From Candidatus Gastranaerophilales bacterium (GTDB lineage: Bacteria; Cyanobacteriota; Vampirovibrionia; Gastranaerophilales; Gastranaerophilaceae): a stretch of 36,270 nucleotides of DNA. The notes beneath the pieces are model-generated. The model saw only the letters and a program-made list of their open reading frames with translations. It ran no database searches and was not told the DNA's origin. Both the position numbers and the translations under genes were made by a program. Positions 13,840 through 29,348 of this stretch are shown here, in pieces. Position 1 is the stretch's first letter; each line of letters begins with the position of its first letter. The stretch covers positions 1 through 36,270 of the forward strand of contig CALURI010000019.1 in NCBI GenBank assembly GCA_944323135.1, given 5' to 3'.

Positions 13840-16518
13840 TTATTTGCAACCAAGAGGTCCTTCTTCTTCTTTGCTGTGTTTGAATTCAATAACAGCTTGA
13901 GCCGCAGCCAGTCTTGCTTGAGGTACTCTGAACGGTGAGCAAGATACATAGTTCAATCCAATTCTGTGACAGAATTTAACTGAAGCAGGATCTCCGCCGT
14001 GTTCTCCGCAAATACCGCGTTTTAGGTGCGGTCTTACTTTTAGAGCTTTATCAAGAGCTATTTTCATTAACTGCCCAACACCTTCCTGATCAAGAGTTTG
14101 GAATGGGTTTGCCGGAAGGATTTTTTGTTCTACATAATTTTGTAAGAATTTACCTTCAGCATCATCTCTTGAATATCCGAATGTCATCTGAGTTAAATCG
14201 TTTGTTCCGAATGAGAAGAATTCTGCATATTTAGCAATTTGATCAGCAGTTAATGCTGCTCTTGGAATTTCAATCATTGTTCCGAACATGTAATCAACGA
14301 CTACTCCTTTTTCATCCATAACTTCTTTTGCAACACGTTCAAGTACTGATTGTACTGTTTTTAGTTCGTTAACGTGTCCTACAAGAGGTATCATAACTTC
14401 AGGCTTAACGTCAAGACCTTCTTTTTTCAAGTCGCAAGCTGCTGAAAATATAGCTCTTACTTGCATTTCGTTGATTTCAGGATAAGTTAAACCTAAACGG
14501 CATCCTCTCAAGCCCATCATTGGGTTTGATTCAGACATAGCTTCAACGATATTAAGAAGTTTTTCATCTTCTTTGTAATCTTCACCTTTAGCTTTTTTAG
14601 CTGCTACTTTAGCGATTAATTCTTCTTTATCAGGTAAGAATTCGTGAAGTGGTGGATCAAGAAGTCTTATCGTCATTGATTTTTCGCCCAAAGCTTTAAA
14701 CATAGCATAAAAATCACTATACTGCATTGGCAATAGATGATCCAAAGCTTCTTTTCTGGCTTCCGGAGTTCCTGCGATAATCATTTTTTGAACCCAAGGA
14801 AGTCTTTCAGGATCCATAAACATGTGTTCTGTACGGCATAAACCTACACCTTCAGCACCTAATTCGAGTGCTTTTGCAACATCTGCAGGTGTATCAGCAT
14901 TAGCTCTTACACTTAATAATTTAGTTTCATCAACCCATTTGAAAAGTTTTTGGAAGTTTTCATCCATTTTAGGCGGAATTAAATGAACAGCTCCTGCCAT
15001 AACTTCACCTGTACCGCCATCAAGAGATATTATATCATCTTTGTGATAAACAGTTCCGTCAGCGGCAGTAAGAGTTTCATTTTTAAGGTCAATTTTAAGA
15101 TCTTCACAACCGGCTACACAAGGTTTACCCATGCCTTTTGCAACTACTGCAGCGTGAGATGTCATACCGCCTCTTAGTGTTAAAACACCTTGAGATTGAA
15201 TCATACCATGAATATCATCAGGACAAGTTTCAATTCTGACTAATATAACCTTTTCTCCTGCCTTACCACGTTCTGCAGCTTCTTCTGTATCAAATACGAT
15301 TTTACCTACGGCTGCACCGGGAGATGCAGCAAGCCCTTTTGCAATTTGTTTCGCTTCTTTTTTAGCAGTCGGGTCAAAGTCAGGTAGAAGTACTTGATAA
15401 AGTTGGTTTGCATCTACAAGTTCTATTGCTCTTTCTTTATCAATAATACCTTCTTCGCACATTTCAACAGCAATTCTTACAGATGCTTTTGCTGTTCTTT
15501 TACCGTTACGGGTTTGTAAAATATATAATTTACCTCTTTCAATTGTAAATTCCATATCTTGAACATCTTTATAGCCTTTTTCAAGTTTTTTAGCTATATC
15601 AACATATTGTTTGTATAAATCAGGCATTTCATGTTCAAGTTCTGCAATAGGTTTTGGAGTTCTAATACCTGCAACAACGTCTTCACCTTGAGCATTAGTT
15701 AAATATTCTCCATAGAATTTATTTTCACCGGTTGATGGGTTTCTGGTAAATGAAACACCTGTTGCACAATCATCTCCCATATTACCGAATACCATTGTTT
15801 GAACGTTAACGGCTGTTCCGTAATTGTGGTCGATTTTGTAGTGATCTCTATAAGCTACAGCTCTTGGAATATTCCATGATCTGAATACGGCTTCAATAGC
15901 TTCTTCTAATTGAATATATGGATCTTGCGGAAATTCTTTACCTGTTTCTTTTTTAATTAATTCTTTATAAGGTTCTATTAAAGATTTCCAATCTTCTGCA
16001 GTCAGGTCTGTATCTGATTTATATCCTTTTTCTGCTTTAATTTTGTCTAAATAATCTTCAAATTTTTGTCTGTCAATTTCCCAAGCAACAGAACCAAACA
16101 TTGTTAAAAATCTTCTGTATGAGTCATAACAAAATCTTGGGTTATTTGTTAATTTTATCATGCCTTCTACTGTTTTGTCGTTCAAACCTAGGTTTAAGAT
16201 TGTTTCCATCATACCGGGCATAGAAAGTCTTGCACCTGAACGAACAGAAACAAGAAGCGGATTTTCTGGATCTCCAAATTTTTTACCAGCTTGTGATTCA
16301 ACAGTTGCAAGAGCTGTTTTTACTTCGTCCATCAACCCTGCCGGCATTTTATTGCCATGATTAATGTAATCCATACAAGTTTCAGTTGTAATAGTCAACC
16401 CCGGAGGTACTGGTAATCCGAGATTAGTCATTTCTGCGAGGTTTGCACCTTTACCCCCGAGAAGATTACGCATATCTGCGTTACCTTCTTTAAATAACCA
16501 TACACGTTTTTCGGTCAT
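13840..16518 (-). CDS. ppdK: pyruvate, phosphate dikinase
   Basis: 892 residues from the ATG at 16518, chosen for its AAAGGAGAT site over an upstream ATG at 16551. It interconverts ATP + Pi + pyruvate with AMP + PPi + PEP in the cytoplasm. The ATP-grasp N-terminal domain has GGKGANLAEM (Lys23), SVRSGARLSMPGMMETILNL, and TIERGKLYILQTRNGKRTA. The central swivelling domain has GGMTSHAAVVAKGMGKPCV with the phosphohistidine at His455, the same number as in the Clostridium symbiosum enzyme. The C-terminal PEP/pyruvate barrel has GLCRTEHMF, IRLLDPPLHEF, GTMIEIPRAAL, GTNDLTQMTFGYSRDD and the catalytic Cys837 in GICGEHGGDP. All key residues are present. The reversible PPi-linked step fits anaerobic glycolysis with ferredoxin-dependent pyruvate metabolism. 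A truncated paralogue lies immediately upstream. Confidence 0.98.
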   Translation of the reverse strand: MTEKRVWLFKEGNADMRNLLGGKGANLAEMTNLGLPVPPGLTITTETCMDYINHGNKMPAGLMDEVKTALATVESQAGKKFGDPENPLLVSVRSGARLSMPGMMETILNLGLNDKTVEGMIKLTNNPRFCYDSYRRFLTMFGSVAWEIDRQKFEDYLDKIKAEKGYKSDTDLTAEDWKSLIEPYKELIKKETGKEFPQDPYIQLEEAIEAVFRSWNIPRAVAYRDHYKIDHNYGTAVNVQTMVFGNMGDDCATGVSFTRNPSTGENKFYGEYLTNAQGEDVVAGIRTPKPIAELEHEMPDLYKQYVDIAKKLEKGYKDVQDMEFTIERGKLYILQTRNGKRTAKASVRIAVEMCEEGIIDKERAIELVDANQLYQVLLPDFDPTAKKEAKQIAKGLAASPGAAVGKIVFDTEEAAERGKAGEKVILVRIETCPDDIHGMIQSQGVLTLRGGMTSHAAVVAKGMGKPCVAGCEDLKIDLKNETLTAADGTVYHKDDIISLDGGTGEVMAGAVHLIPPKMDENFQKLFKWVDETKLLSVRANADTPADVAKALELGAEGVGLCRTEHMFMDPERLPWVQKMIIAGTPEARKEALDHLLPMQYSDFYAMFKALGEKSMTIRLLDPPLHEFLPDKEELIAKVAAKKAKGEDYKEDEKLLNIVEAMSESNPMMGLRGCRLGLTYPEINEMQVRAIFSAACDLKKEGLDVKPEVMIPLVGHVNELKTVQSVLERVAKEVMDEKGVVVDYMFGTMIEIPRAALTADQIAKYAEFFSFGTNDLTQMTFGYSRDDAEGKFLQNYVEQKILPANPFQTLDQEGVGQLMKIALDKALKVRPHLKRGICGEHGGDPASVKFCHRIGLNYVSCSPFRVPQARLAAAQAVIEFKHSKEEEGPLGCK

Positions 16519-16603: not shown

Positions 16604-18946
16604 TTATAAATTTAATTTTCTTTTTATTGCGGTTTGGGCTGCGATTAATTTTGTTTGTGGAATATAGTTTGTATCTATTGAAATATAATCCATGCCAATT
16701 TCTAGTGCATATTTTAGGGAATTTAAATCTCTCATTTGAATCCCGCATATTCCGCAGGTTAAATTTTTATTTGATTTTTTACCGTTTGTTGCAGACATTA
16801 GTATTAGTTGGCCTACACTGTCTTTATCTAATCTTATAAACGGATTAAATGAAATTATATTTTTTTCAATACTATTATTAATGTAATCATAATTATAACG
16901 TGAATATCCGAATGTCATTTGTGTTAAGTCATTTGTTCCGTATGAAAAGAAATCGGCATGTTTTGCGATTTCTTCTGCGGTGAGAGCTGCTCTTGGAATT
17001 TCAATCATTGTTCCGATTTTATATTCAATTACAATATTTTTTTCTGACATGACTTTATCGGCGGTAGTTTGAATAAGTTGTTTTAAAATTTTTAATTCAT
17101 TAACATGGCTTATAAATGAAGTCATAATATATGGGATAGGGGTATAACCTTCTTTTTTTAAGCTGCATGCTGCTTCAAAAATAGATTGAATTTGTATTTC
17201 ATAAAGTTCAGGATAAAGTATTGCCAATCTGCTTCCTCGAAGTCCAAGCATAGGATTAATATCAGATATTTTTTTCAGAAAATTATATGTGATATTGTCA
17301 TTTTTATTATCTTGGTTGTTGGCTTCTTTTATAATTATATTTTTTATTAATTCTTCCTTTTTTGGGAAAAATTCTTCAAATGGGTAATCTGATAGTCTGA
17401 ATGTAAATATTTTATTATCAAATTTCTTTAGCATTTTGTAGTAGTCGTAATATTGTTGTTGTTTTATTGTTTTAAGAGCGTGATATCTTTCATTTTTTGT
17501 TTTTGCATTAATTAGGTTATAAACCCATGAACTAATAACATTGTCGCTATCTGGTAATAAACATTCAGTTCTGCATAGTCCTATCATATCAGAGATGTGG
17601 GCGCAAGCATTTGTAATTTCTTCAGGATGATATATATTTGCGCCTATTTTTATTTCTTTGGTTTCGTCAAGCCATTTTATAAATGTTTGGAAAAATTCAT
17701 TATTATCTGCTTTATTTATAATTTGCGGTGTTATATTCATAATTGCTTCTGATTTAGTAATGAGTTTTTCATTAACCATATCTATTGCAATTTTTAATGA
17801 TGAATTTGGTGTAGTTTTGCCGTTTCTGTATTTTAAAATCCATAATGTGCCATTTTCTATTGTAAATTCAATTTCTTGGGAATTTTTATTTATATTTTCC
17901 AATTTTTGCGAAATTGAAATAAGTTTGTTGTATACATCGGGCATTTCAAATTTTAATTCATCAATGTTTTTAGGTGTATTGTTATTTTTTACAATATCTT
18001 CTCCCTGAGCTTTATTTAAATATTGCCCGTAAAGTTTTTTTTCACCTGTTGATGGGTTGCGTGTCGCAAGAATTCCTGTCCCGCTATTGGAATTTTTATT
18101 ACCGAATACCATTGCTTGAACACTGATTGCGTTACCATAATTATGAGATATATTATTACGTTCTCTGTGTGTTTTGGCTAAAGGATTATCCCAGCATTTG
18201 AATATTGCTTCTATTATATTTATAAGCTGAGTATGCGGGTTTTGCGGAAATTCTTTGCCGGTATTATCTTTTATTGTTTTTTTATATTGCTCTATTAAAA
18301 ATTTATAACCGCTTGTTGATATTTGAGAGTTATTATTTACTCTTTCAATTTTTTTTATTTTTTCAAGTTCTGTATCAAAAAATTTAAGTTTATTTAATCC
18401 AAATACAACGGAACCATAGCCTGCTAGTAACTTTATATAGCAATCATACCAGAAAACAGGAGAATTTGATAATTTAATCATGTTGCTTATTATTTCATCA
18501 TTTAAACCTAAATTTAAAACAGTTTCAGGGATACCCGGCATGGAAAAATTATTTTTTATCCTTTCAAGGATATAAAATGGAGTTTTTGAAAGCTTTTTCC
18601 TTTTAGTTTCAATTGATGATTTATAAATTTCGTCCAGTAAACCTGTTATAGGAAATGCTGTTGATGATCTTATTGAAAATAATAAAGGATTGGTTGAATC
18701 ACCAAAAATTTTTCCGGTTTCTTTTTCTATTATTGAAATGGAATTTTTAATTTCATCAATTAAATTTTCATCTAATTTGTAGTCGTTATTGATATAATTT
18801 AAGCAGTTCTCGCTTGTAATTGTAAACCCTGAAGGGACAGGAAGACCTAATTGAACCATTTCATAAAGATTTACTCCTGTTGTTCCGAGCAGCTTATAAT
18901 TATCTTTTGTTCCTTCATTAAATAAACATACGCGTTTTTCTGTCAT
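16604..18946 (-). CDS. PPDK paralogue lacking the phosphohistidine domain
   Basis: 780 residues, colinear with the ppdK product next door from the identical start MTEKRV.LF.EG to the end, but with three lesions. First, the whole central domain of about 150 residues carrying the TSHAAV histidine is missing, the sequence passing from SEAIMNITPQIINKADNN directly to EFFQTFIKWLDETKE. Second, the ATP-site GGKG is GTTG (Lys23 to Thr). About 35 residues are inserted at 101-134, splitting the SARxSMPGM loop. Third, EHGGDP after the catalytic Cys734 is IQMRDL. Residues of the pyruvate/PEP site are otherwise kept: CRTE, the Arg of FRLSD, GTMIEIPRAAL, GTNDLTQMTFGYSR and GICG. The reading frame is fully open over 2.3 kb, so it is not simply decaying. 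It cannot run the PPDK cycle alone; a PEP/pyruvate-binding regulatory partner of PPDK is inference. Confidence 0.9.
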   Translation of the reverse strand: MTEKRVCLFNEGTKDNYKLLGTTGVNLYEMVQLGLPVPSGFTITSENCLNYINNDYKLDENLIDEIKNSISIIEKETGKIFGDSTNPLLFSIRSSTAFPITGLLDEIYKSSIETKRKKLSKTPFYILERIKNNFSMPGIPETVLNLGLNDEIISNMIKLSNSPVFWYDCYIKLLAGYGSVVFGLNKLKFFDTELEKIKKIERVNNNSQISTSGYKFLIEQYKKTIKDNTGKEFPQNPHTQLINIIEAIFKCWDNPLAKTHRERNNISHNYGNAISVQAMVFGNKNSNSGTGILATRNPSTGEKKLYGQYLNKAQGEDIVKNNNTPKNIDELKFEMPDVYNKLISISQKLENINKNSQEIEFTIENGTLWILKYRNGKTTPNSSLKIAIDMVNEKLITKSEAIMNITPQIINKADNNEFFQTFIKWLDETKEIKIGANIYHPEEITNACAHISDMIGLCRTECLLPDSDNVISSWVYNLINAKTKNERYHALKTIKQQQYYDYYKMLKKFDNKIFTFRLSDYPFEEFFPKKEELIKNIIIKEANNQDNKNDNITYNFLKKISDINPMLGLRGSRLAILYPELYEIQIQSIFEAACSLKKEGYTPIPYIMTSFISHVNELKILKQLIQTTADKVMSEKNIVIEYKIGTMIEIPRAALTAEEIAKHADFFSYGTNDLTQMTFGYSRYNYDYINNSIEKNIISFNPFIRLDKDSVGQLILMSATNGKKSNKNLTCGICGIQMRDLNSLKYALEIGMDYISIDTNYIPQTKLIAAQTAIKRKLNL

Positions 18947-19005: not shown

Positions 19006-19251
19006 TTATTTTTTAAAATAATCGCAAATTAAAGTTTTTTTACGGGGAATAAGATTTTTAATATTTTCTAAAAATTTATTTTTTTGTGATTCTTCTAATT
19101 CTTTTTTCAGGATTGCTTTTTCCAAAACGACTTTGTTATATAAGTCTGAACATACAGAACTTTTTTCAACATGCTTTCTTAGTTTTGCCAATTGAATTTC
19201 TTTTTCTCTAATAAATCGTGTTAGTTCTTTATTCACTTTAAAAGACCTCAT
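19006..19251 (-). CDS. small hypothetical charged helical protein
   Basis: 81 residues, strongly basic and predicted helical: KELTRFIREKEIQLAKLRKHVEK, then EKAILKKELEESQKNKFLENI, with heptad-like spacing of Leu/Ile. It has two Cys in the second half (CSDLYNKVV, LICDYFKK) and no membrane segment. No ribosome binding site is evident before the ATG, and I do not recognise it. It lies between the oxidoreductase operon and the PPDK paralogue on the same strand. Confidence 0.5.
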   Translation of the reverse strand: MRSFKVNKELTRFIREKEIQLAKLRKHVEKSSVCSDLYNKVVLEKAILKKELEESQKNKFLENIKNLIPRKKTLICDYFKK

Positions 19252-19318: not shown

Positions 19319-19864
19319 TTATACCGGTAATAAATCATATTCATAACCGATTTTTAAAGCTTGAATATTTAGAGGTAAAAGATTTTTTCTATGCGGAGGA
19401 ATAACAGCATCAAGTGCTTGGTTAAGATATTCCAAAGGAATAATTTTGGTGCCTTTTGCAAGTATTCCTAGCGATAAAATATTGGCCATTTTTACGTTAC
19501 CTAAATCTTCTGCCATTTTAGAAATTGGTGCAAAAATGTAATTTATATTCGTTCTGTTTTTTACTTCTTTTACAAGTGTAGAATTTGCAATCATCAAGCC
19601 GCCTTTTTTTATTTTAGGTAAAAACCTGTCAAAGGATGCTTGATTTAATGCAATAATGAAATCTGCATCAGATTTATTCACTTCACTAACTTCATCATCA
19701 CTCATAACGACTTCGCAATTAACGGTTCCTCCGCGCATTTCTGCTCCGTATGAAGGGTACCAGGTTACATTTTTACCTTCAAGCATAAATGCATTAGCTA
19801 AAACTTCTCCGGCAAGCAATACGCCTTGACCGCCAAATCCTGCTATTATAAAATTCTTTTCCAT
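19319..19864 (-). CDS. 2-oxoacid:ferredoxin oxidoreductase, gamma subunit
   Basis: 181 residues, a complete gamma subunit. The N-terminal FIIAGFGGQGVLLAGEVLANAF is the family signature, then WYPSYGAEMRGGTVNCEVVMS, ADFIIALNQASFDRFLPKIK and VKMANILSLGILAKG. The subunit contacts the CoA-binding region and the TPP subunits of the heterotetramer. An AGAGGAAAAG site precedes the ATG. It is last in the operon delta-alpha-beta-gamma, 57 bases after the beta subunit. Confidence 0.95.
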   Translation of the reverse strand: MEKNFIIAGFGGQGVLLAGEVLANAFMLEGKNVTWYPSYGAEMRGGTVNCEVVMSDDEVSEVNKSDADFIIALNQASFDRFLPKIKKGGLMIANSTLVKEVKNRTNINYIFAPISKMAEDLGNVKMANILSLGILAKGTKIIPLEYLNQALDAVIPPHRKNLLPLNIQALKIGYEYDLLPV

Positions 19865-19920
19865 TTTCTTTTCCTCTTTATGGGTGTGATAATTATTTAC
19901 TTTTATGAATATTATATGAG

Positions 19921-20685
19921 TTAGTTTTGAGTTGTTGTTTCTTGGGTTAAATCTTTATATATCCCCGGTTTAAATATTGGCATCATTTCATTTTTTACTC
20001 TGTCATGTGCTTTTTGTGGAGACATTTTCCAGTTTGTAGGACAGGTTGAAAGAATTTCAACAAATCCAAACCCAAGTCCGTTTATTTGAACTTCAAAAGC
20101 TTTTTTAATTGCTTGTTTAGCTTTTCTTATATTTGCGACAGTATCAAGAGAAACTCTTGCTGAAAAAGCGGTTCCGTCACAAAGTGCAATATGTTCAGCA
20201 ATTTTTATCGGGTAACCGTAATAATCAACATTTCTTCCTGTTGGTGATGTTGTTGTTACCTGTCCAAGAAGTGTTGTCGGTCCTAATTGACCGCCTGTCA
20301 TTCCATAAGTGGTATTATTAATACAAATTGCGGTGATATTTTCGCCTCTTAATGCCGCGTGCATGCTTTCAGCAAGTCCGATTGATGCGAAATCTCCGTC
20401 GCCTTGATATGTAAATACAATTTTATCAGGTCTTGCTCTTTTTATACCTGTTGCTTCTGCCAGAGCTCTACCATGCGGAGCTTCAAGAGAATCAACATTA
20501 ATAAAATCATATATGGTAACTGAACAACCGATAGAAGCTGCTAAAATAGTGTTTTCTCTAATTCCCAGTTCATCTAATACTTCCGCAACAAGTCTTACTG
20601 CAACACCATGATCACAGCCAGGGCAGAAAGAATATTTTACATCTCCTTTTAAAGATTCCGGTAATTTAAAAACTTGTGTTGCCAT
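19921..20685 (-). CDS. 2-oxoacid:ferredoxin oxidoreductase, beta (TPP) subunit
   Basis: 254 residues. The thiamine pyrophosphate site is GDGDFASIGLAESMHAA ... NNTTYGMTGGQ (the GDG...N motif with Mg2+ ligands), and the N-terminal FCPGCDHGVAVRL binds near the cofactor. No iron-sulfur Cys cluster of its own is visible beyond CPGC. It decarboxylates the 2-oxoacid and passes electrons to the delta ferredoxin subunit, giving acyl-CoA. Its ATG overlaps the alpha subunit stop (TAATG), so they are translationally coupled. Sequence alone does not decide between 2-oxoglutarate and branched-chain 2-oxoacids. Confidence 0.95.
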   Translation of the reverse strand: MATQVFKLPESLKGDVKYSFCPGCDHGVAVRLVAEVLDELGIRENTILAASIGCSVTIYDFINVDSLEAPHGRALAEATGIKRARPDKIVFTYQGDGDFASIGLAESMHAALRGENITAICINNTTYGMTGGQLGPTTLLGQVTTTSPTGRNVDYYGYPIKIAEHIALCDGTAFSARVSLDTVANIRKAKQAIKKAFEVQINGLGFGFVEILSTCPTNWKMSPQKAHDRVKNEMMPIFKPGIYKDLTQETTTQN

Positions 20686-21749
20686 TATAATAATTCCTCT
20701 ATTCTATTAACAATTTCTTTAGCCGAAGGCGGAACTCCAACGCCTTTATTGATTAATTCAACAGGGCATACTCCGTTAACGGCTAATTTTACGTCATTAA
20801 CCATTTGCCCCATATTAACTTCAACTGTAATAATTTTCTTTGCAGATTGAGCAAGCTCAGATATTCTTTTTGAAGGGAAAGGATATAGGGTTATCGGTCT
20901 GATAAACCCTGCATTTATTCCTTTTTCACGGAGTATTTTCATAGCTGTTTTTACATTTCTTGAAGTACTTCCGAAACTTGTTAAAATTATTTCAGCATCT
21001 TCTGTATTAATTTCTTCCCATTGAGTTTCGTTTTCTTCAATAAGTTTATATTTATTATACAATTTGTTTAAAAATTCACATCTGTCATCTGCTAGAGGAC
21101 CGTAAGAACGAATTATTCTTCCGTTTCGTCCTTTTGCTCCTGTTAATGCCCAGCTTGAATTGTCTATTTCAGGATATGGGTAATCATAAAATTCTACAGG
21201 TTCCATCATTTGTCCCAAAAGCCCGTCTGCAAGTAATACGGTTGGATTTCTGTATTTTTGGGCAAGATAAAATGCTTTATATGTTAAATCAACACATTCC
21301 TGAACAGTTGACGGTGCCAGCACTATTAAATTATAATCTCCGTTGCCGCCACCTTTTGTTGCTTGAACATAATCCCCTTGAGAAGGGTAAATATTGCCGA
21401 GACCGGGACCGCCTCTCATTACGCTGACAAGTACAACAGGTAATTCATCTGCTGTAGCGTAAGAAAGTCCTTCCTGCATAAGTGCTACTGCACAGGAAGA
21501 GGATGATGTCATCGCTTTTACACCGGTTGATACTGCGCCTATTGTCATATTGATTGCTGCAAGTTCACTTTCCGCAGAAACATAACCGCGTTTTAATTCT
21601 TGCATTTTCCCGCTCATAAATTCTCCGATTTCACTTTGCGGAGTAATCGGATAGCCAAAATAACATTGGCAGCCTGCTAAAACCGCAGCATTTGCTATTG
21701 CATAATTCCCTTTTGTTAAAACCTTTTTATTAGTAAGACATTGTGTCAT
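20685..21749 (-). CDS. vorB: 2-oxoacid:ferredoxin oxidoreductase, alpha subunit (VorB-like)
   Basis: 354 residues. Domain I has GNYAIANAAVLAGCQCYFGYPITPQSEI, then AESELAAINMTIGAVSTGVKAMTSSSS, ELPVVLVSVMRGGPGLGN and a C-terminal domain II. The stretches GGGNGDYNLIVLAPSTVQE and ADGLLGQMMEPVEFYDYP are close to those of subunit VorB of 3-methyl-2-oxobutanoate:ferredoxin oxidoreductase, so I favour branched-chain 2-oxoacids. KorA (2-oxoglutarate) is the alternative. A GAGGATTAACT site precedes the ATG. It is the second gene of a four-gene operon. Confidence 0.9.
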   Translation of the reverse strand: MTQCLTNKKVLTKGNYAIANAAVLAGCQCYFGYPITPQSEIGEFMSGKMQELKRGYVSAESELAAINMTIGAVSTGVKAMTSSSSCAVALMQEGLSYATADELPVVLVSVMRGGPGLGNIYPSQGDYVQATKGGGNGDYNLIVLAPSTVQECVDLTYKAFYLAQKYRNPTVLLADGLLGQMMEPVEFYDYPYPEIDNSSWALTGAKGRNGRIIRSYGPLADDRCEFLNKLYNKYKLIEENETQWEEINTEDAEIILTSFGSTSRNVKTAMKILREKGINAGFIRPITLYPFPSKRISELAQSAKKIITVEVNMGQMVNDVKLAVNGVCPVELINKGVGVPPSAKEIVNRIEELL

Positions 21750-22044: not shown

Positions 22045-22187
22045 TCGAAATAAAAAACGGGGTATTCAATCTTTACAATTGTAATAATAAACGTTAACAG
22101 TTTGCATTGATTGATATTCTTCTGATAATATATATATATAAAACTATAAATATAATAAAGAGGGATATTTTTAAGAAAGAGAATAAA

Positions 22188-25100
22188 ATGGCGCTGACTG
22201 TAGATGAAATTGCAGAAATCCTCAACACAATGCGTGTTGAAAATGAACACAATGTTGAAAATTTTGAAAAAGTTTTAACCGGTATAAATAATAAACTTGA
22301 ATTAATGGCTGATGATAATGAGGCCACTGATTTAATTAAGCTTTATCTTTCGGAACTGAAAAAGATTGTTGAAGATAAATATACTGATGCAAATGAAAGA
22401 TTCTCAGGAATAGAAAATTATCTTAAAAATATTGTTTCTTCTCAAAATGAAGGTGCTAAAACAGCAGAATTAAATGATTTATCTAAGGTTTTGAGCGCAA
22501 GTTTTAATGCTTTATCAAGTGAATTTTCACATCAGGCAAGTGCTTTAAACGATCTGGATTCCAAATTAGAAATTATTAGAACAAGTTCATTTAATAAAGA
22601 TGAGCTTGCCGGATTGTTAAACAATTTTGCATCTGATATATCAGAAATGAACGATGATTTTGGAAAATCATTCGGAAAAATTCAAGATTCTCTTGCTGAT
22701 ACAATTGAAAAAATAAATAATTTAGATTTTTCTGCTCAGATAAATTCTCTTGAAGGGAAAATATCATCTCTTGCCCAAAATATTGATTCTGTACCGGCAA
22801 AAATTTCTTTTGCAACTGTGGAAGATAAGATTTCATATTTCCAAAATATTATAGATTCTTTGAGAGGCGTTATATCAGATATCCCTTCTTTAAGTGCAGA
22901 AGCTGTTGCAAAGAAGTTTTCAGATTTAGAAGATAATTTTAAAAATATTGTTTCAGAAGCAGACTTTACTGCATTCAAATCTGATTTGGCAGATTTTGTG
23001 CAAAAAATTATTGATAATTCAAGCGCTCTGAATTCAGAACTATCATATTCCGCTGAAAAAATTGAAAATATTTTATCAACTATAAATTCAATGGATTATA
23101 CGCAGGATTTTGATCGTATTTCAAGAGAAATGGCGGAATTAGAATCTGCTGTTAATGAAAATATTGCAGAGGTTGAAAAAAACATAAATACTTCAATTTC
23201 AGATGTATCTGAAGATATATTGAAAAAACTTGATAATTTTGAAACTTCTTTATCATCAATTGTATCTGATTCTGATTTTGCAGGATTTAAAAATGATTTG
23301 GCGGATTTTGTACAAAAAATTATCGATAATTCAAGTGCTTTAAATTCAGAACTGTCATATTCTGCCGAAAGAATTGAAAATATTTTAACAACTGTTAAAG
23401 CTCTTGATTTCAGGGATGATTTCGCAGGGATAGAAAGCCGTATTAATGATTTGAAGGAAACTTTTGATGAAGGTTCAAAAGTAAATTATACAAATTTGTC
23501 GGAACAGATAAATACAATAAAAACGTTAATAGATAACGGCTTTTCCGGCGTCGATACGTCAAGAGAGACTGTTTATAATGATTTGAAAAACCGTATAAAT
23601 GATATTGTATCTAATTTACAAACAGTCATAAATTCTAATCCCCAAAAATCTATTGATGAACTTTCATCTGTGGTATTGAATTTATCAGAAAATGCTGCAG
23701 AATTGAGAAAAAATATCAGCACTGATATTCAAGGAGATTACGGGGATGTTAAATCAAGTATAAATGCTGTCGCTTTAGCTTTACAAAATGTTAAAGAAGA
23801 TATAATTACAAAAAATACAGATTATTATAATTTATCTTCTGAAAATGCTTCTTTATTACAAGAAAAAATTGATGAACAACTCAGGGTTTTAGGTGACATT
23901 AAAAACTTAATTAATGAAGGTAATAAGTTTGATTTTTCAGAGGTTACATCTTCAATTGATAATATAAATAATGAAATTTCTTTGATAATTTCAGATTTGA
24001 AAGAAGATTCTTCTTCAAATTATGAAGCTGTTAAATCGTATATAGAGGAACTATCTTCCGCTATAACTTCTACCCGTGAAGAATTTTTGAATGTCGCCGG
24101 TCAAAATTCAAATCTGTTGAGTGCAAAACTTGATACTGTTGTGTCAAATGTTGCGGATTTCAGAGAAGAATTTAAACAGGCTATATCAAGTGATGTAGGT
24201 AATTTTTCTTTAATTTCTGATGATATAAACGGGATATCTGAAAAAATTGAAAAGTTACAAAGCAATTTTGTTGAAAATTCCGCAGAAAATTTCAATTCCG
24301 TTAAATTTTTATTAGAAGAAATGGCGGAAAAGTTATTTGAAGATATCGAATATCAAAAGAAAATGTTTTCTGATGTTTCGCAAAACGAAGAACAAAAACG
24401 TCTTGAATCAGTCCAAAAATTGACTGAAGATATTCAAAATCTGGAAACTATTTTAACAACAAATAACGAATCTTTTAAATCAGTTATAGATGAAAATATA
24501 AAAAATATTAAAGAATATATTAAAGAGTTTAGAGAATCTTTATATACATCACAGCTTGAAGGTGAAAACAAATTTAATGTAAAACTTGAGGCTCTGGATG
24601 TATTAAATCATGGATTTGAAACATTTGTTACGGATTTGAATAGCCAAATTCAAAATGTCTTGGATGAAATAAAAACTCTCGATGCAACAAAGCAGAATAA
24701 TGAAATTCAAACAGAGTTAAATAATTTGAAAATTTTGTGTGAAGGTATTCTTACTTCTACAAATGATATGTTAAGCAGAAATGATGAACTGGCTTCTGTA
24801 ATATCATCTTTGATGGAAATTGTATTGAAGAAAGGTGATATAAATGAAATATCTTTCAAATTAGATGAATATTCTGACTTATTAGCTTCATTAAGAGAAT
24901 TTGCTGAAGAATCTTTTGCGAATAATTCTTCTGAAATAAATTCTTTATATGAAAGAGTTGTGACTTCTTTTGAAAATATTGTATCAAGAGAGGATTTTGC
25001 GGAATTTAAAAAAGATTTGTCTGAATTCCTCCAAAAGGTTACAGATAATTCAAATATTTTAAATGCGGATTTTCAAACTAACAAAGAAAAAATTGAGGAG

Positions 25101-28100
25101 GTTATCGGAAAGCTTTCTTCTATTGAACCTTTTGATTATTCCTATGATTTAGAACAAATTTCATCAAAAATTGATGATTTATCTATGATATTTTCAAGTT
25201 CATCTTCTGCAAATTATGAAGGTATCAGCAAAAAACTCGACGAAATAAAATCACAAATTGAAGAAAATAATAAAGATGAAAAAATTACCGGTAAACTTGA
25301 TGAAGTTTCAGAACTTGTAAATTCTGTAAAAGACATATTATCAGAATCTGTTGATACAAATTCGAAATCAATAAATGAGCAATTAGCTAAGTTTGAAGAT
25401 GAATTTTCAAGAGTTGTAACAACTGATGATTTTACAAATTTCCGTCTTGATTTCGGCGATTTTATTCAAAAAATATTAGATAATGCTGATGTTTTGCATT
25501 TGAATAGTGATGCTGCAAAAGAACAAATTAATACTGTTTTAGATAAATTAAATACATTGAATTTTTCTGCAGATTTTCAAAATATTGACAGCAGGTTGAA
25601 TGATATAAAATCCTCATTTGATAACAATTCAAAAATAAATTGTGAAAATATAATAAATGAGATTAGCATTTTACAAACCTGGTTAGATGATAATTTAGCT
25701 AAAAATTCAGATTTAGATAAAGAAAATTACGATAAACTTTATTTTTCATTAACAGAGCTTTCTGATAATGTTAATGTTTTATTGGATTTGTCATCTCATA
25801 AACAATTAGAAATCTTGGACAAAATTTCAGAAACAATTGGAAGTTTTGTTGTTGACATTAATGAAAATATTGATAATGGGGTTAAACTTAATTTAGAAGA
25901 ATTAAAAAGTTCTGTTTCTGATGCGGTTAGTCAAATAACAGAGGTAAAACAAGGATTTGAAGATAAAACTGACAATATAACTTTTAGTTTAACTTCAGGG
26001 TTTGATAATATAAAATTATCATTGGAAAATATATTAACAGCATTTAATGCATTAAATGATTATTTAAAAGACGGGTATGAAAAAAATACTTCTGATGTTT
26101 TAACAGGAATCGAAACTGCTTCTGAGAAAATTAATGAATTAAAAGAAGAAATTCATAAAGTCACAACAGATTATTCAGACAGAATTTTTACTGTTATGAA
26201 TGAAATATCTGATAAATTTGAAGGGTTATCAACAGGTGTAGCAGATAGTGTAAGCTCTCAGATGTTAGGTTTTAAAAATACTCTTTCCGCAATATCTGAT
26301 AATTTGCAGAGTATGTATGGAGAGTATTTTAAACATTTACAAGATGCAAGTGAAGCTCAAGTAACTGAGATAAACGGGATATCAGGCAGTATAAGTGAAC
26401 TTCGTTCTCATGTAGATGAAGCAATTCAAAGTTTGAAAGATTATGTAACTGAATTAAATGTAGCTGCAAAATCTTCAAAATCATTGAGTGACAGTAAATT
26501 TTCGGAAAAACTGATTAATCTCGAAGCAGCATTGGCTAATAATGCTGACGGATATGAAGAAAAAATAGTTTCTCTTCAGGAAAAATTATCTGAATTTGTA
26601 AGTGTTATTGAAAATAGTTCTTCTGTTGCTGAAGAAAAAATAGCTTCATCTATGAATGAAATTGATGGAATAAAAAGTGATCTCGCTTCTGTAGAGGAAC
26701 TTATTAATACTTTAAGATTATCTTCTGATGAAAAAAGTTCACAGATTATTGCATTACTTGACACTGGTATTGAAAATGTTACTGTTTCAGTAAATGAAAT
26801 TAGTAATAATGCAGTTCAGAATATTGATGCTTCAATAAGCAAAAATATTTCAGTATTGGAAGATAAGCTTACAATTCTTTTAAATTATGTAGAAAATTTA
26901 AAAGATACAAATTTGAAAGATTTAGGGTATGAGCTGAATGACAGATTATCAGAATTAAAACAAGAATTAGGTTTAATTAATACCGATATAACAGATGCTT
27001 TGCAAACAAAATTAGAAGACATAATAGGTGCAATTGAACCAGTAAAATCAGCTGTAGAAAGTTTTTCAGGCTATGATTTTGATAAACTCTTAGATGATGT
27101 AAAATCAGCTCTTGAAACTTCATTTATGAACTTTAGCGTTGATGTCAACGGTGAACTTTCTGCGCATTCAGAATCTGTATTGAGATTGGAACAAGCTTAT
27201 AAAGAAACATTTAACAAGATTTCTGTAATAGAGGATTGTGTATCGGAGGATATTCAAAACAGTATTGAACTTTTGAATGTTACGATAGAAACTAATACCC
27301 GTAATTTAAGATGCGGTTTGGAAGAAAAACTTGATGAATATATTAATGACCTAAAAACTCATCTTGATATAGTAATAAATGATACAAAAACTTTAGATTC
27401 GATAGATAATCTTAAAGATGAACTTTCTGTAAAATTAGATGCTGTAATTTCAGAACAAGAGAATTTGGCTCAACAAAATAATGTTATAACAGCGGGTATA
27501 AATACTCTTGGTGATAGTTTGAAAAATTATGTTCAATCTGCTTGTGAAAATACAATAGACAAATATAGCCCTGTACAGAATAAAGAATCTATGGATGCTT
27601 TGCATCAAAAGTTAGATACTCTTGTTGCAACAACCCGTGAGGATGAAATTTTAAATTCATTATTCGAGCTTGAACAGAAAGCGGATTCTATCGGATTGGA
27701 TTTATCTGAATCAATAAATTCTATTAAAGAAAAAATCGATGTAATAGAAAAAGACAATTCATTAATACTTGCATTTCATGAGCTTGTTGCTAAAGTGGAA
27801 TCATTTACTGATGATAATACTTTGAATATAGCATTAAAAGCATTATCAGAAAAAATTGATATTATTGCATCTGATAGTGCAATGGACGAACTTCACGACA
27901 AATTTGATGAGTTTTCTTCAAAATTAGAATCATATACAGATGACAGTTCAATAGATACAGCGTTAAAATCGTTATCTGAAAAAATCGATGTGATTGCATC
28001 TGATAGTACAATGGAAGAACTCCATGATAAATTTGATGAATTTTCTTCAAAATTAGAATTATATACAGATAGCAGTTCAATAGATACAGCGTTAAAAACG

Positions 28101-29348
28101 TTATCAGAAAAAATTGATGTGATTGCATCTGATACTACAGTAGAAGAACTTTATGAAAGATTTGACGAATTTTCATCAGAAGAAGATAAGCTGGCAGAAA
28201 TGTTATCTACTTTACATGAAAAAGTTGATGCAATTGCTTTTGATGGTTCTGATTTTGATATAGAAGAAGAAATTGATGATATAAAATCTCTTATTTTTGA
28301 ACAAAGAAAATATTTTGAGGCATCATCAGATGAAAAAGCAGCAGCAATAGATAAATATTTGCGCGATGTTTTACTGAAGCTTGATAATGTTGATTTGGAA
28401 AAGAATTCGGAAGATATAAAAGATTCAATCATTAATACGCTTGTTTCGCTTTTTGAACAAATTTCTTTTGTTGAAGAATCCGAAGATATAAAAGATTTTG
28501 TGGAAGAAAAAACTGATGCAATCAATCAAAATCTTATAGAAGTTCAAAACCAATTAAAGCAGATTACAAAACCAAGTGATGATTCCGGATATTCATACAC
28601 TTTGCAGGATGTAGAAAGTGATATCGCGAAATTACGTCTGGCAATAAATAATATGTCAGATAATAGTTTTGAAAGTATATCGGATAATATTAAAAAAATT
28701 GTAAGTTCGGTAGAGGGACTTGAATCTACTTTGACTCAAGATCAAATTGTTGATTTAAAAAGTGATATTGAAAAGTTAAATGAAGATATTTTAAGTATCA
28801 GCTCCCGAACAAATAAACTTTTGCTCACTTCAGATGAATCTTATAAAGCATTAAATGACGGTTTAAATAACTTTAGCAGTCTTGTTTATAAGCTGGAAGA
28901 CAGAATAAATTATCTGGATAATTCAGAGGTGAGCGAAAGGCTTGAAAGGAAAATTGATAATATTCAATCAATGGCAGTTGCGTCTGCAAATGCTGACAAA
29001 GTTTTCCATCAAGTAATGATGTATTTGGGAGAATGGATAGATTCCACAACCGAAAATATTTCAAGTATAACTGATAAAACTTCTGAAATTTCAAGAATAA
29101 AAGAAAATATAGAAGAATTAAAAGAAATAATTCCTGAAAAATCATTGATATTAGAAGAAATTGAAAATAAGTTTGAGGAGCAGGAATTACGTATTGACAG
29201 ATTAGAGATGAAATTAGAGAAAATTTTATCGACACTTGAAGAAAAAGATAATATGATGTTAAATAGAAAAGTGGATAAAATTGAAAAAATGTTATCCAGA
29301 CTTGGTACAAATATAGAAAAACTGGCATCATATGTTGATGAAGAATAA
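22188..29348 (+). CDS. giant coiled-coil repeat protein
   Basis: 2386 residues from the ATG at 22188; an upstream in-frame start at 22107 is rejected because its codons run through the AT-rich promoter region. It begins MALTVDEIAEILNTMRVENE and has no signal peptide or membrane segment. It is acidic, Ser/Asn/Asp-rich, with very few Cys and long amphipathic helices with heptad-like hydrophobic spacing throughout. A module of about 60 residues, (D)DFxxFKxDLxxFxQKIxDNSxxLNxxx...EKIExIL, occurs at least four times, starting near 22962, 23274, 24993 and 25428. Three 43-residue tandem repeats lie at 27801-28187. The C-terminus (about 2330-2386) is a more regular coiled coil ending in EKMLSRLGTNIEKLASYVDE. 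A cytoplasmic filament or scaffold, or a non-Sec exported rod, are possible; I cannot name a family. It overlaps glcD by 17 bases. Confidence 0.85.
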   Translation: MALTVDEIAEILNTMRVENEHNVENFEKVLTGINNKLELMADDNEATDLIKLYLSELKKIVEDKYTDANERFSGIENYLKNIVSSQNEGAKTAELNDLSKVLSASFNALSSEFSHQASALNDLDSKLEIIRTSSFNKDELAGLLNNFASDISEMNDDFGKSFGKIQDSLADTIEKINNLDFSAQINSLEGKISSLAQNIDSVPAKISFATVEDKISYFQNIIDSLRGVISDIPSLSAEAVAKKFSDLEDNFKNIVSEADFTAFKSDLADFVQKIIDNSSALNSELSYSAEKIENILSTINSMDYTQDFDRISREMAELESAVNENIAEVEKNINTSISDVSEDILKKLDNFETSLSSIVSDSDFAGFKNDLADFVQKIIDNSSALNSELSYSAERIENILTTVKALDFRDDFAGIESRINDLKETFDEGSKVNYTNLSEQINTIKTLIDNGFSGVDTSRETVYNDLKNRINDIVSNLQTVINSNPQKSIDELSSVVLNLSENAAELRKNISTDIQGDYGDVKSSINAVALALQNVKEDIITKNTDYYNLSSENASLLQEKIDEQLRVLGDIKNLINEGNKFDFSEVTSSIDNINNEISLIISDLKEDSSSNYEAVKSYIEELSSAITSTREEFLNVAGQNSNLLSAKLDTVVSNVADFREEFKQAISSDVGNFSLISDDINGISEKIEKLQSNFVENSAENFNSVKFLLEEMAEKLFEDIEYQKKMFSDVSQNEEQKRLESVQKLTEDIQNLETILTTNNESFKSVIDENIKNIKEYIKEFRESLYTSQLEGENKFNVKLEALDVLNHGFETFVTDLNSQIQNVLDEIKTLDATKQNNEIQTELNNLKILCEGILTSTNDMLSRNDELASVISSLMEIVLKKGDINEISFKLDEYSDLLASLREFAEESFANNSSEINSLYERVVTSFENIVSREDFAEFKKDLSEFLQKVTDNSNILNADFQTNKEKIEEVIGKLSSIEPFDYSYDLEQISSKIDDLSMIFSSSSSANYEGISKKLDEIKSQIEENNKDEKITGKLDEVSELVNSVKDILSESVDTNSKSINEQLAKFEDEFSRVVTTDDFTNFRLDFGDFIQKILDNADVLHLNSDAAKEQINTVLDKLNTLNFSADFQNIDSRLNDIKSSFDNNSKINCENIINEISILQTWLDDNLAKNSDLDKENYDKLYFSLTELSDNVNVLLDLSSHKQLEILDKISETIGSFVVDINENIDNGVKLNLEELKSSVSDAVSQITEVKQGFEDKTDNITFSLTSGFDNIKLSLENILTAFNALNDYLKDGYEKNTSDVLTGIETASEKINELKEEIHKVTTDYSDRIFTVMNEISDKFEGLSTGVADSVSSQMLGFKNTLSAISDNLQSMYGEYFKHLQDASEAQVTEINGISGSISELRSHVDEAIQSLKDYVTELNVAAKSSKSLSDSKFSEKLINLEAALANNADGYEEKIVSLQEKLSEFVSVIENSSSVAEEKIASSMNEIDGIKSDLASVEELINTLRLSSDEKSSQIIALLDTGIENVTVSVNEISNNAVQNIDASISKNISVLEDKLTILLNYVENLKDTNLKDLGYELNDRLSELKQELGLINTDITDALQTKLEDIIGAIEPVKSAVESFSGYDFDKLLDDVKSALETSFMNFSVDVNGELSAHSESVLRLEQAYKETFNKISVIEDCVSEDIQNSIELLNVTIETNTRNLRCGLEEKLDEYINDLKTHLDIVINDTKTLDSIDNLKDELSVKLDAVISEQENLAQQNNVITAGINTLGDSLKNYVQSACENTIDKYSPVQNKESMDALHQKLDTLVATTREDEILNSLFELEQKADSIGLDLSESINSIKEKIDVIEKDNSLILAFHELVAKVESFTDDNTLNIALKALSEKIDIIASDSAMDELHDKFDEFSSKLESYTDDSSIDTALKSLSEKIDVIASDSTMEELHDKFDEFSSKLELYTDSSSIDTALKTLSEKIDVIASDTTVEELYERFDEFSSEEDKLAEMLSTLHEKVDAIAFDGSDFDIEEEIDDIKSLIFEQRKYFEASSDEKAAAIDKYLRDVLLKLDNVDLEKNSEDIKDSIINTLVSLFEQISFVEESEDIKDFVEEKTDAINQNLIEVQNQLKQITKPSDDSGYSYTLQDVESDIAKLRLAINNMSDNSFESISDNIKKIVSSVEGLESTLTQDQIVDLKSDIEKLNEDILSISSRTNKLLLTSDESYKALNDGLNNFSSLVYKLEDRINYLDNSEVSERLERKIDNIQSMAVASANADKVFHQVMMYLGEWIDSTTENISSITDKTSEISRIKENIEELKEIIPEKSLILEEIENKFEEQELRIDRLEMKLEKILSTLEEKDNMMLNRKVDKIEKMLSRLGTNIEKLASYVDEE
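22962..23370 (+). repeat. two 104-codon-spaced copies of the coiled-coil module
   Basis: The module beginning DFTAFKSDLADFVQKIIDNS (22962) returns at 23274. Over about 90 bases the copies differ at ten sites, nine of them synonymous and one Lys/Arg. The protein sequence is therefore held under selection after duplication. Confidence 0.8.
27801..28187 (+). repeat. three tandem 129-bp repeats inside the giant gene
   Basis: Units at 27801-27929, 27930-28058 and 28059-28187 each encode 43 residues of the pattern YTDDSSIDTALKSLSEKIDV then IASDSTMEELHDKFDEFSSK then LE. Units 2 and 3 are closest; unit 1 is more diverged and unit 3 drifts at its end. In-frame and head to tail, they look like recent expansion of a 43-residue helical pair. 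Confidence 0.88.

Follow-up and report, generated by a model that had tools for sequence, protein, structure and literature searches.

A PPDK homologue devoid of the phosphohistidine domain next to intact ppdK in a Gastranaerophilales genome

The ppdK locus and its additional reading frame

The window, i.e., the whole stretch of DNA analysed here, consists of 36,270 nucleotides from Candidatus Gastranaerophilales bacterium (assembly GCA_944323135.1, contig CALURI010000019.1). On its reverse strand, a syntenic locus is marked by three 2-oxoacid:ferredoxin-oxidoreductase-like genes (19319..21749). They are followed on the same strand by a small conserved ORF of about 81 aa (19006..19251), by the feature under study, a PPDK homologue of 780 aa without phosphohistidine (His) domain (16604..18946), hereafter the His-less gene, and, directly downstream across a gap of 85 bp, by an intact ppdK (13840..16518; 892 aa). 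While ppdK has a strong Shine-Dalgarno sequence (AAGGAG), none is recognisable before the His-less ORF. The small ORF precedes ppdK in most relatives with the locus; ORFs of about 81–86 aa ending in K[TV]LICDYF separate the oxidoreductase genes from ppdK in L037, L038, L043, L044, L046, L049 and L054 as well, and a pilin-like gene (RRAFTLAEVLITIGIIGVVAALTIPTI) fills this gap instead in genome G028 (L038:2318-3109, forward strand). Among relatives, this gap measures anything between about 0.4 and 2.8 kb, which suggests that genes come and go at the site. In 16 relatives, no remnant of the His-less gene was found in the interval that leads from the oxidoreductase genes to ppdK. Elsewhere in the window, positions 22107-29348 of the forward strand encode a repetitive protein of about 2400 aa, apparently a coiled coil, in DNA of low GC.

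The His-less frame (18946..16604) runs over 780 codons from an ATG to a single terminal stop. When its CDS (about 28% GC) was shuffled, the mean number of stops was 67 and the minimum 41, vs. none inside the real sequence. These 780 stop-free codons, together with the open piece of an orthologue from another species (see below), show that the open frame is not due to chance. A deletion within ppdK itself, made during assembly, was considered and rejected, as the earlier note on this DNA had also supposed: the His-less sequence is only 47% identical to its neighbour, which makes such an artefact very unlikely, and it has an orthologue in a second species.

The two proteins align end to end and colinearly at this 47% identity, sharing the start MTEKRVxLF, and the exact ORF, the Pfam domains and the alignment all agree with the description, given in the earlier note, of an open PPDK homologue that has lost the phosphohistidine domain beside an intact ppdK, with the same start and colinear ends. 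In Pfam terms, the His-less protein has PPDK_N and PEP-utilizers_C and is devoid of the PEP-utilizers (His) domain (PF00391), which carries the catalytic His455, whereas the ppdK product has all three. The gap corresponds to linker, His domain and linker (about residues 403-517 in the numbering of the neighbouring PPDK), and some 14 residues (about 402-415; 17702..17743, reverse strand) join the N-terminal and C-terminal domains instead. Its score against the PPDK family model TIGR01828 is 747.5 bits, below the cut-off of 843.45.

From the N-terminus on, the reverse strand encodes a first part of the nucleotide-binding domain, from MTEKRV to about residue 90 (18676..18946), an insertion between SIRSS and the SMPG loop (residues 96-134; 18545..18661), the remainder of the nucleotide-binding domain (residues 135-400; 17746..18544) and, after the junction, the PEP/pyruvate-binding domain (PF02896; 16631..17695). 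The insertion had been noticed before and is indeed present, but it amounts to 38-39 residues rather than about 35. AlphaFold2 models it with very low confidence, like a disordered loop. As a possible tandem copy of the SMPG loop that follows, it shows only a weak local likeness to it, equalled by 0.65% of shuffles for this chosen pair; in a comparison with the rest of the protein, 24% of shuffles do as well, and nothing is seen at the DNA level. As a whole, the AlphaFold2 model (29 sequences, pLDDT 82, pTM 0.73) superimposes on PPDK crystal structures and chains with Z of 36-43 over about 700 residues, so that the predicted fold is that of PPDK.

Site conservation and selection

Residues were mapped on the PPDK of Clostridium symbiosum (1dik) through alignments and a column check. 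In PPDK, the ATP site comprises K22, R92, D321, E323, Q335 and R337, and the PEP/pyruvate site the ten residues R561, R617, E745, S764, G766, T767, N768, D769, C831 and Y851. In the His-less protein, the six ATP-site positions read T, R, E, E, K and R: besides the K22→T replacement already pointed out from the sequence, D321→E and Q335→K are additional changes, while R92, E323 and R337 are kept, and H455 is absent along with its domain. The PEP/pyruvate site is kept in full (10/10), as the earlier note had stated for its residues. This retention is selective, since the strictly invariant PEP-site residues are kept in 9/9 cases vs. 70/127 of the other invariant sites of the PEP domain (Fisher p = 0.006; the tenth residue, R617, is kept too but stands outside this count, as it is not shared by one of the references). 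No such protection is seen for the ATP site (3/6 kept vs. 84/125 other invariant sites). Overall, 42% of the strictly invariant positions of the PEP domain and 34% of those of the nucleotide domain are changed. In the PEP domain, the loop GICGEHGGDP of PPDK has become GICGIQMRDL, i.e., the replacement of EHGGDP by IQMRDL previously reported. The conserved EHGG loop adjoins the catalytic Cys, and its loss may change the PEP site.

One orthologue was identified, in a second gut bacterium, another species of the same genus (genome G009, MAG Candidatus Gastranaerophilales E24__bin68, contig CALUVX010000004.1), where it occupies the same position as in the window, directly upstream of ppdK. As the contig begins inside the gene, the comparison covers the C-terminal 22%: these last 171 codons are open and 76% identical, and IQMRD, as well as SIDT (for SCSP), are derived changes at conserved C-terminal positions common to both orthologues. 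The earlier expectation of an orthologue with the same deletion is thus borne out as regards the open frame, whereas the loss of the His domain is seen in one genome, the G009 contig ending before that region. In a survey of 383 genomes of the family and 386 of the phylum, with a cut-off that would miss fragments such as that of G009, the query itself was the only strong single match of the His-less type. Searches of genome contigs and viral contigs with specific peptides yielded no further orthologue, and a degenerate DNA pattern for CGICGIQMRD matched the known one only. Being found in two species only, the His-less gene is dispensable.

Over the 171 codons available, pairwise dN/dS (NG86) is 0.142/1.09 and a scripted GY94 fit gives ω = 0.064 (2dlnL = 111 vs. 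ω = 1), far below 1 (the earlier note had named a value near 1 as refuting its reading). With dS near saturation, the value of ω is approximate, though the rejection of neutrality is not marginal. For the control pair of ppdK genes, ω is 0.0078 (GY94). Purifying selection on this stretch is thus clear, although the constraint is some eight times looser than on PPDK. The composition of the His-less protein has drifted towards AT-coded residues (K+N+I: 32% vs. 17%; GC1: 0.35 vs. 0.54). Together with the missing Shine-Dalgarno sequence, this drift is what a weakly expressed gene under relaxed constraint would be expected to show.

Origin of the His-less gene

The earlier note had regarded the gene as a paralogue of its neighbour, but a copy of the adjacent ppdK is disfavoured by our results. 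At face value, adjacency, same orientation and same N-terminus (MTEKRV) speak for a tandem duplication, and an AU test does not reject a clade uniting the His-less protein with the neighbour's type (p = 0.205). However, MTEKRV is common to both PPDK types, and the His-less protein has a one-residue insertion (KFFDTE) that also exists in other Gastranaerophilaceae types (KYFESE), but neither in the neighbour's type nor in the outgroup. Likewise, at resolved diagnostic sites it matches the other types in 22/29 (22:7) and 15/19 (15:4) cases. The tree without outgroups offered no usable placement, whereas the tree with outgroups puts the His-less protein, on a long branch, inside the other PPDK types (SH-aLRT 97 and 99). 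Hence, the gene is probably no duplicate of the neighbouring ppdK, and a tandem duplicate has little chance of being the right answer, a question of origin that is independent of function.

As a rule, genomes of the family carry one PPDK, but several types exist, and their distribution cuts across genera, as seen in L072-L074, L075-L076, L005-L013 and L100-L105. The genera g2 and g10 hold two types each; this distribution suggests repeated replacement of ppdK by transfer. One genome (G137; 88% complete, 1% contamination) has two intact PPDKs, L106 on contig 4 and L107 on contig 28, which are 89% identical. In G023 and G032, which have another PPDK type, the small ORF is followed within this locus, after 68-104 bp, by ppdK, which lies in the very place taken by the His-less gene in the window. 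Since its diagnostic sites and shared insertion place the His-less gene with a different PPDK type, we infer that it is a former resident or a foreign copy standing beside its replacement.

Possible function and comparison with known systems

Without the swivelling His, no phosphate passes between the two sites of PPDK. The His-less protein is for that reason not a PPDK (EC 2.7.9.1; TIGR01828), and its sequence indicates that it should be unable to run the PPDK reaction alone. It resembles the enzyme in its colinear nucleotide-binding and PEP/pyruvate domains, in its fold and in its complete PEP site, but differs from it by the missing phosphohistidine domain and linkers, the replaced Lys22, Asp321 and Gln335, and the additional 38-39 residues. 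No substitute for the lost domain is at hand in the genome, the only match to PF00391 being inside ppdK itself, and no HPr was found there either, in agreement with the term pseudo-enzyme used in the earlier note. Pyruvate kinase is present, and the only two PEP-utilizers_C proteins of the genome are the ppdK product and the His-less protein.

The nearest precedent is VadK (Rv1127c) of Mycobacterium tuberculosis, a PPDK derivative with ATP and His domains that has lost its PEP domain and has a regulatory role (PMC13400623). Both proteins are derived from PPDK by the loss of one of its three domains, which makes the PPDK reaction impossible. In contrast to VadK, the His-less protein lost the His domain, kept the PEP site and has an intact PPDK next to it. 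The two-component dikinases HpeHI, which function with their parts on separate chains (the His swivel domain being borne by HpeH; PMC12167813), are alike in that dikinase parts are distributed over separate chains, but the genome of the window encodes no separate His swivel chain. The PEP-binding domains of Enzyme I and PEP synthase have the same barrel (Z of about 28-30), yet they match only the C-terminal half of the His-less protein, the sequence of which is clearly that of a PPDK. No PPDK lacking only the His domain was found described in the literature searched, which omits most subscription journals, consistent with the earlier statement that no such form was known.

The usual switch of PPDK is the PPDK regulatory protein (PDRP). 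Its Kinase-PPPase domain (PF03618/DUF299) had no match in the genome, nor in the 32 genomes of the genus searched, in a screen for which 3/14 control genomes were positive. Nearly all of these 32 genomes carry ppdK, yet no PDRP was detected in them. This absence, which extends to genomes of the genus without the His-less gene, may make room for a regulatory role but is no proof of one.

Given its preserved PEP/pyruvate pocket and the purifying selection on the 171 codons compared, the gene is probably not junk but encodes a helper or sensor without catalytic activity. The reading that we prefer, with a probability of about 45%, is that of a displaced PPDK kept as a non-catalytic binder of PEP or pyruvate, which plausibly influences PPDK as its partner in a mixed dimer. 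According to this scenario, a PPDK of a type differing from the neighbour's, former resident or foreign, would have been displaced by the present ppdK and would have lost part of its ATP site along with its phosphohistidine domain and both linkers. Its intact PEP site suggests that it binds PEP or pyruvate, as the earlier note had proposed, and it is the selective retention of the site that stands observed, while the ligand, together with Mg2+, would presumably still bind to the C-terminal barrel. Only dimeric PPDK is active; its subunits meet at an interface in the PEP-binding domain, and the central domains of the two chains have been proposed to mediate their coupling (PMC5556012). In a less supported step, the His-less protein might thus pair with PPDK via its PEP-binding domain, i.e., the PPDK dimer interface. 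Because coupling is proposed to involve the central domains, a mixed dimer with one subunit devoid of the swivelling domain would be expected to behave differently, and PPDK output could be tuned to PEP/pyruvate. That excision of the swivelling domain turned this protein into a PEP/pyruvate-sensing pseudo-subunit controlling, through mixed dimers, its own replacement in PDRP-less bacteria is a doubtful proposition at present.

Other readings of the function are conceivable. The His-less gene might be a slowly decaying pseudogene, i.e., a displaced PPDK in which the His domain was deleted and that drifts towards AT, its first stop codon yet to come. The AT-driven amino-acid composition, the weak ribosome site, the many changes at strictly invariant positions of both domains and the presence in only 2 of the sampled genomes fit such a decay. 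We nevertheless consider it unlikely, as neutrality is rejected over the last 171 codons, frames are open in two species, uninterrupted over 780 codons in the window, and the residues of the PEP site are selectively retained.

Were the His-less protein a PEP/pyruvate domain working in trans with the phosphohistidine domain of PPDK, in the manner of HpeHI, the retention of all known PEP-site residues, including the catalytic Cys831, would make sense, the adjacent PPDK would supply the His domain, and dikinases with parts on separate chains do work (PMC12167813). However, PPDK has its own PEP domain, so that an advantage is not obvious, the genome shows no free His domain, and both orthologues differ from PPDK in the EHGG loop and in several conserved residues towards the end of the barrel, all of which renders this possibility remote. 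The derived C-terminal changes common to both orthologues (IQMRD; SIDT for SCSP) would suit a barrel with a novel ligand or reaction (e.g., another 2-oxo acid), unrelated to the control of PPDK, and domain-deleted relatives of PPDK have gained new roles (VadK, PMC13400623). Yet an altered ligand is not what one expects from a protein in which every known PEP-site residue is kept, and we regard it as improbable.

The domain swing of PPDK is among the largest known, and it is still debated why activity requires the dimer (PMC5556012). A natural subunit that retains the PEP domain used for dimerisation and lacks the swivelling one is a ready-made test piece for this question. In its domain make-up, the His-less protein is the mirror image of VadK, and it may offer, within the Gastranaerophilaceae, an example of a displaced enzyme retained as the non-catalytic partner of its replacement.
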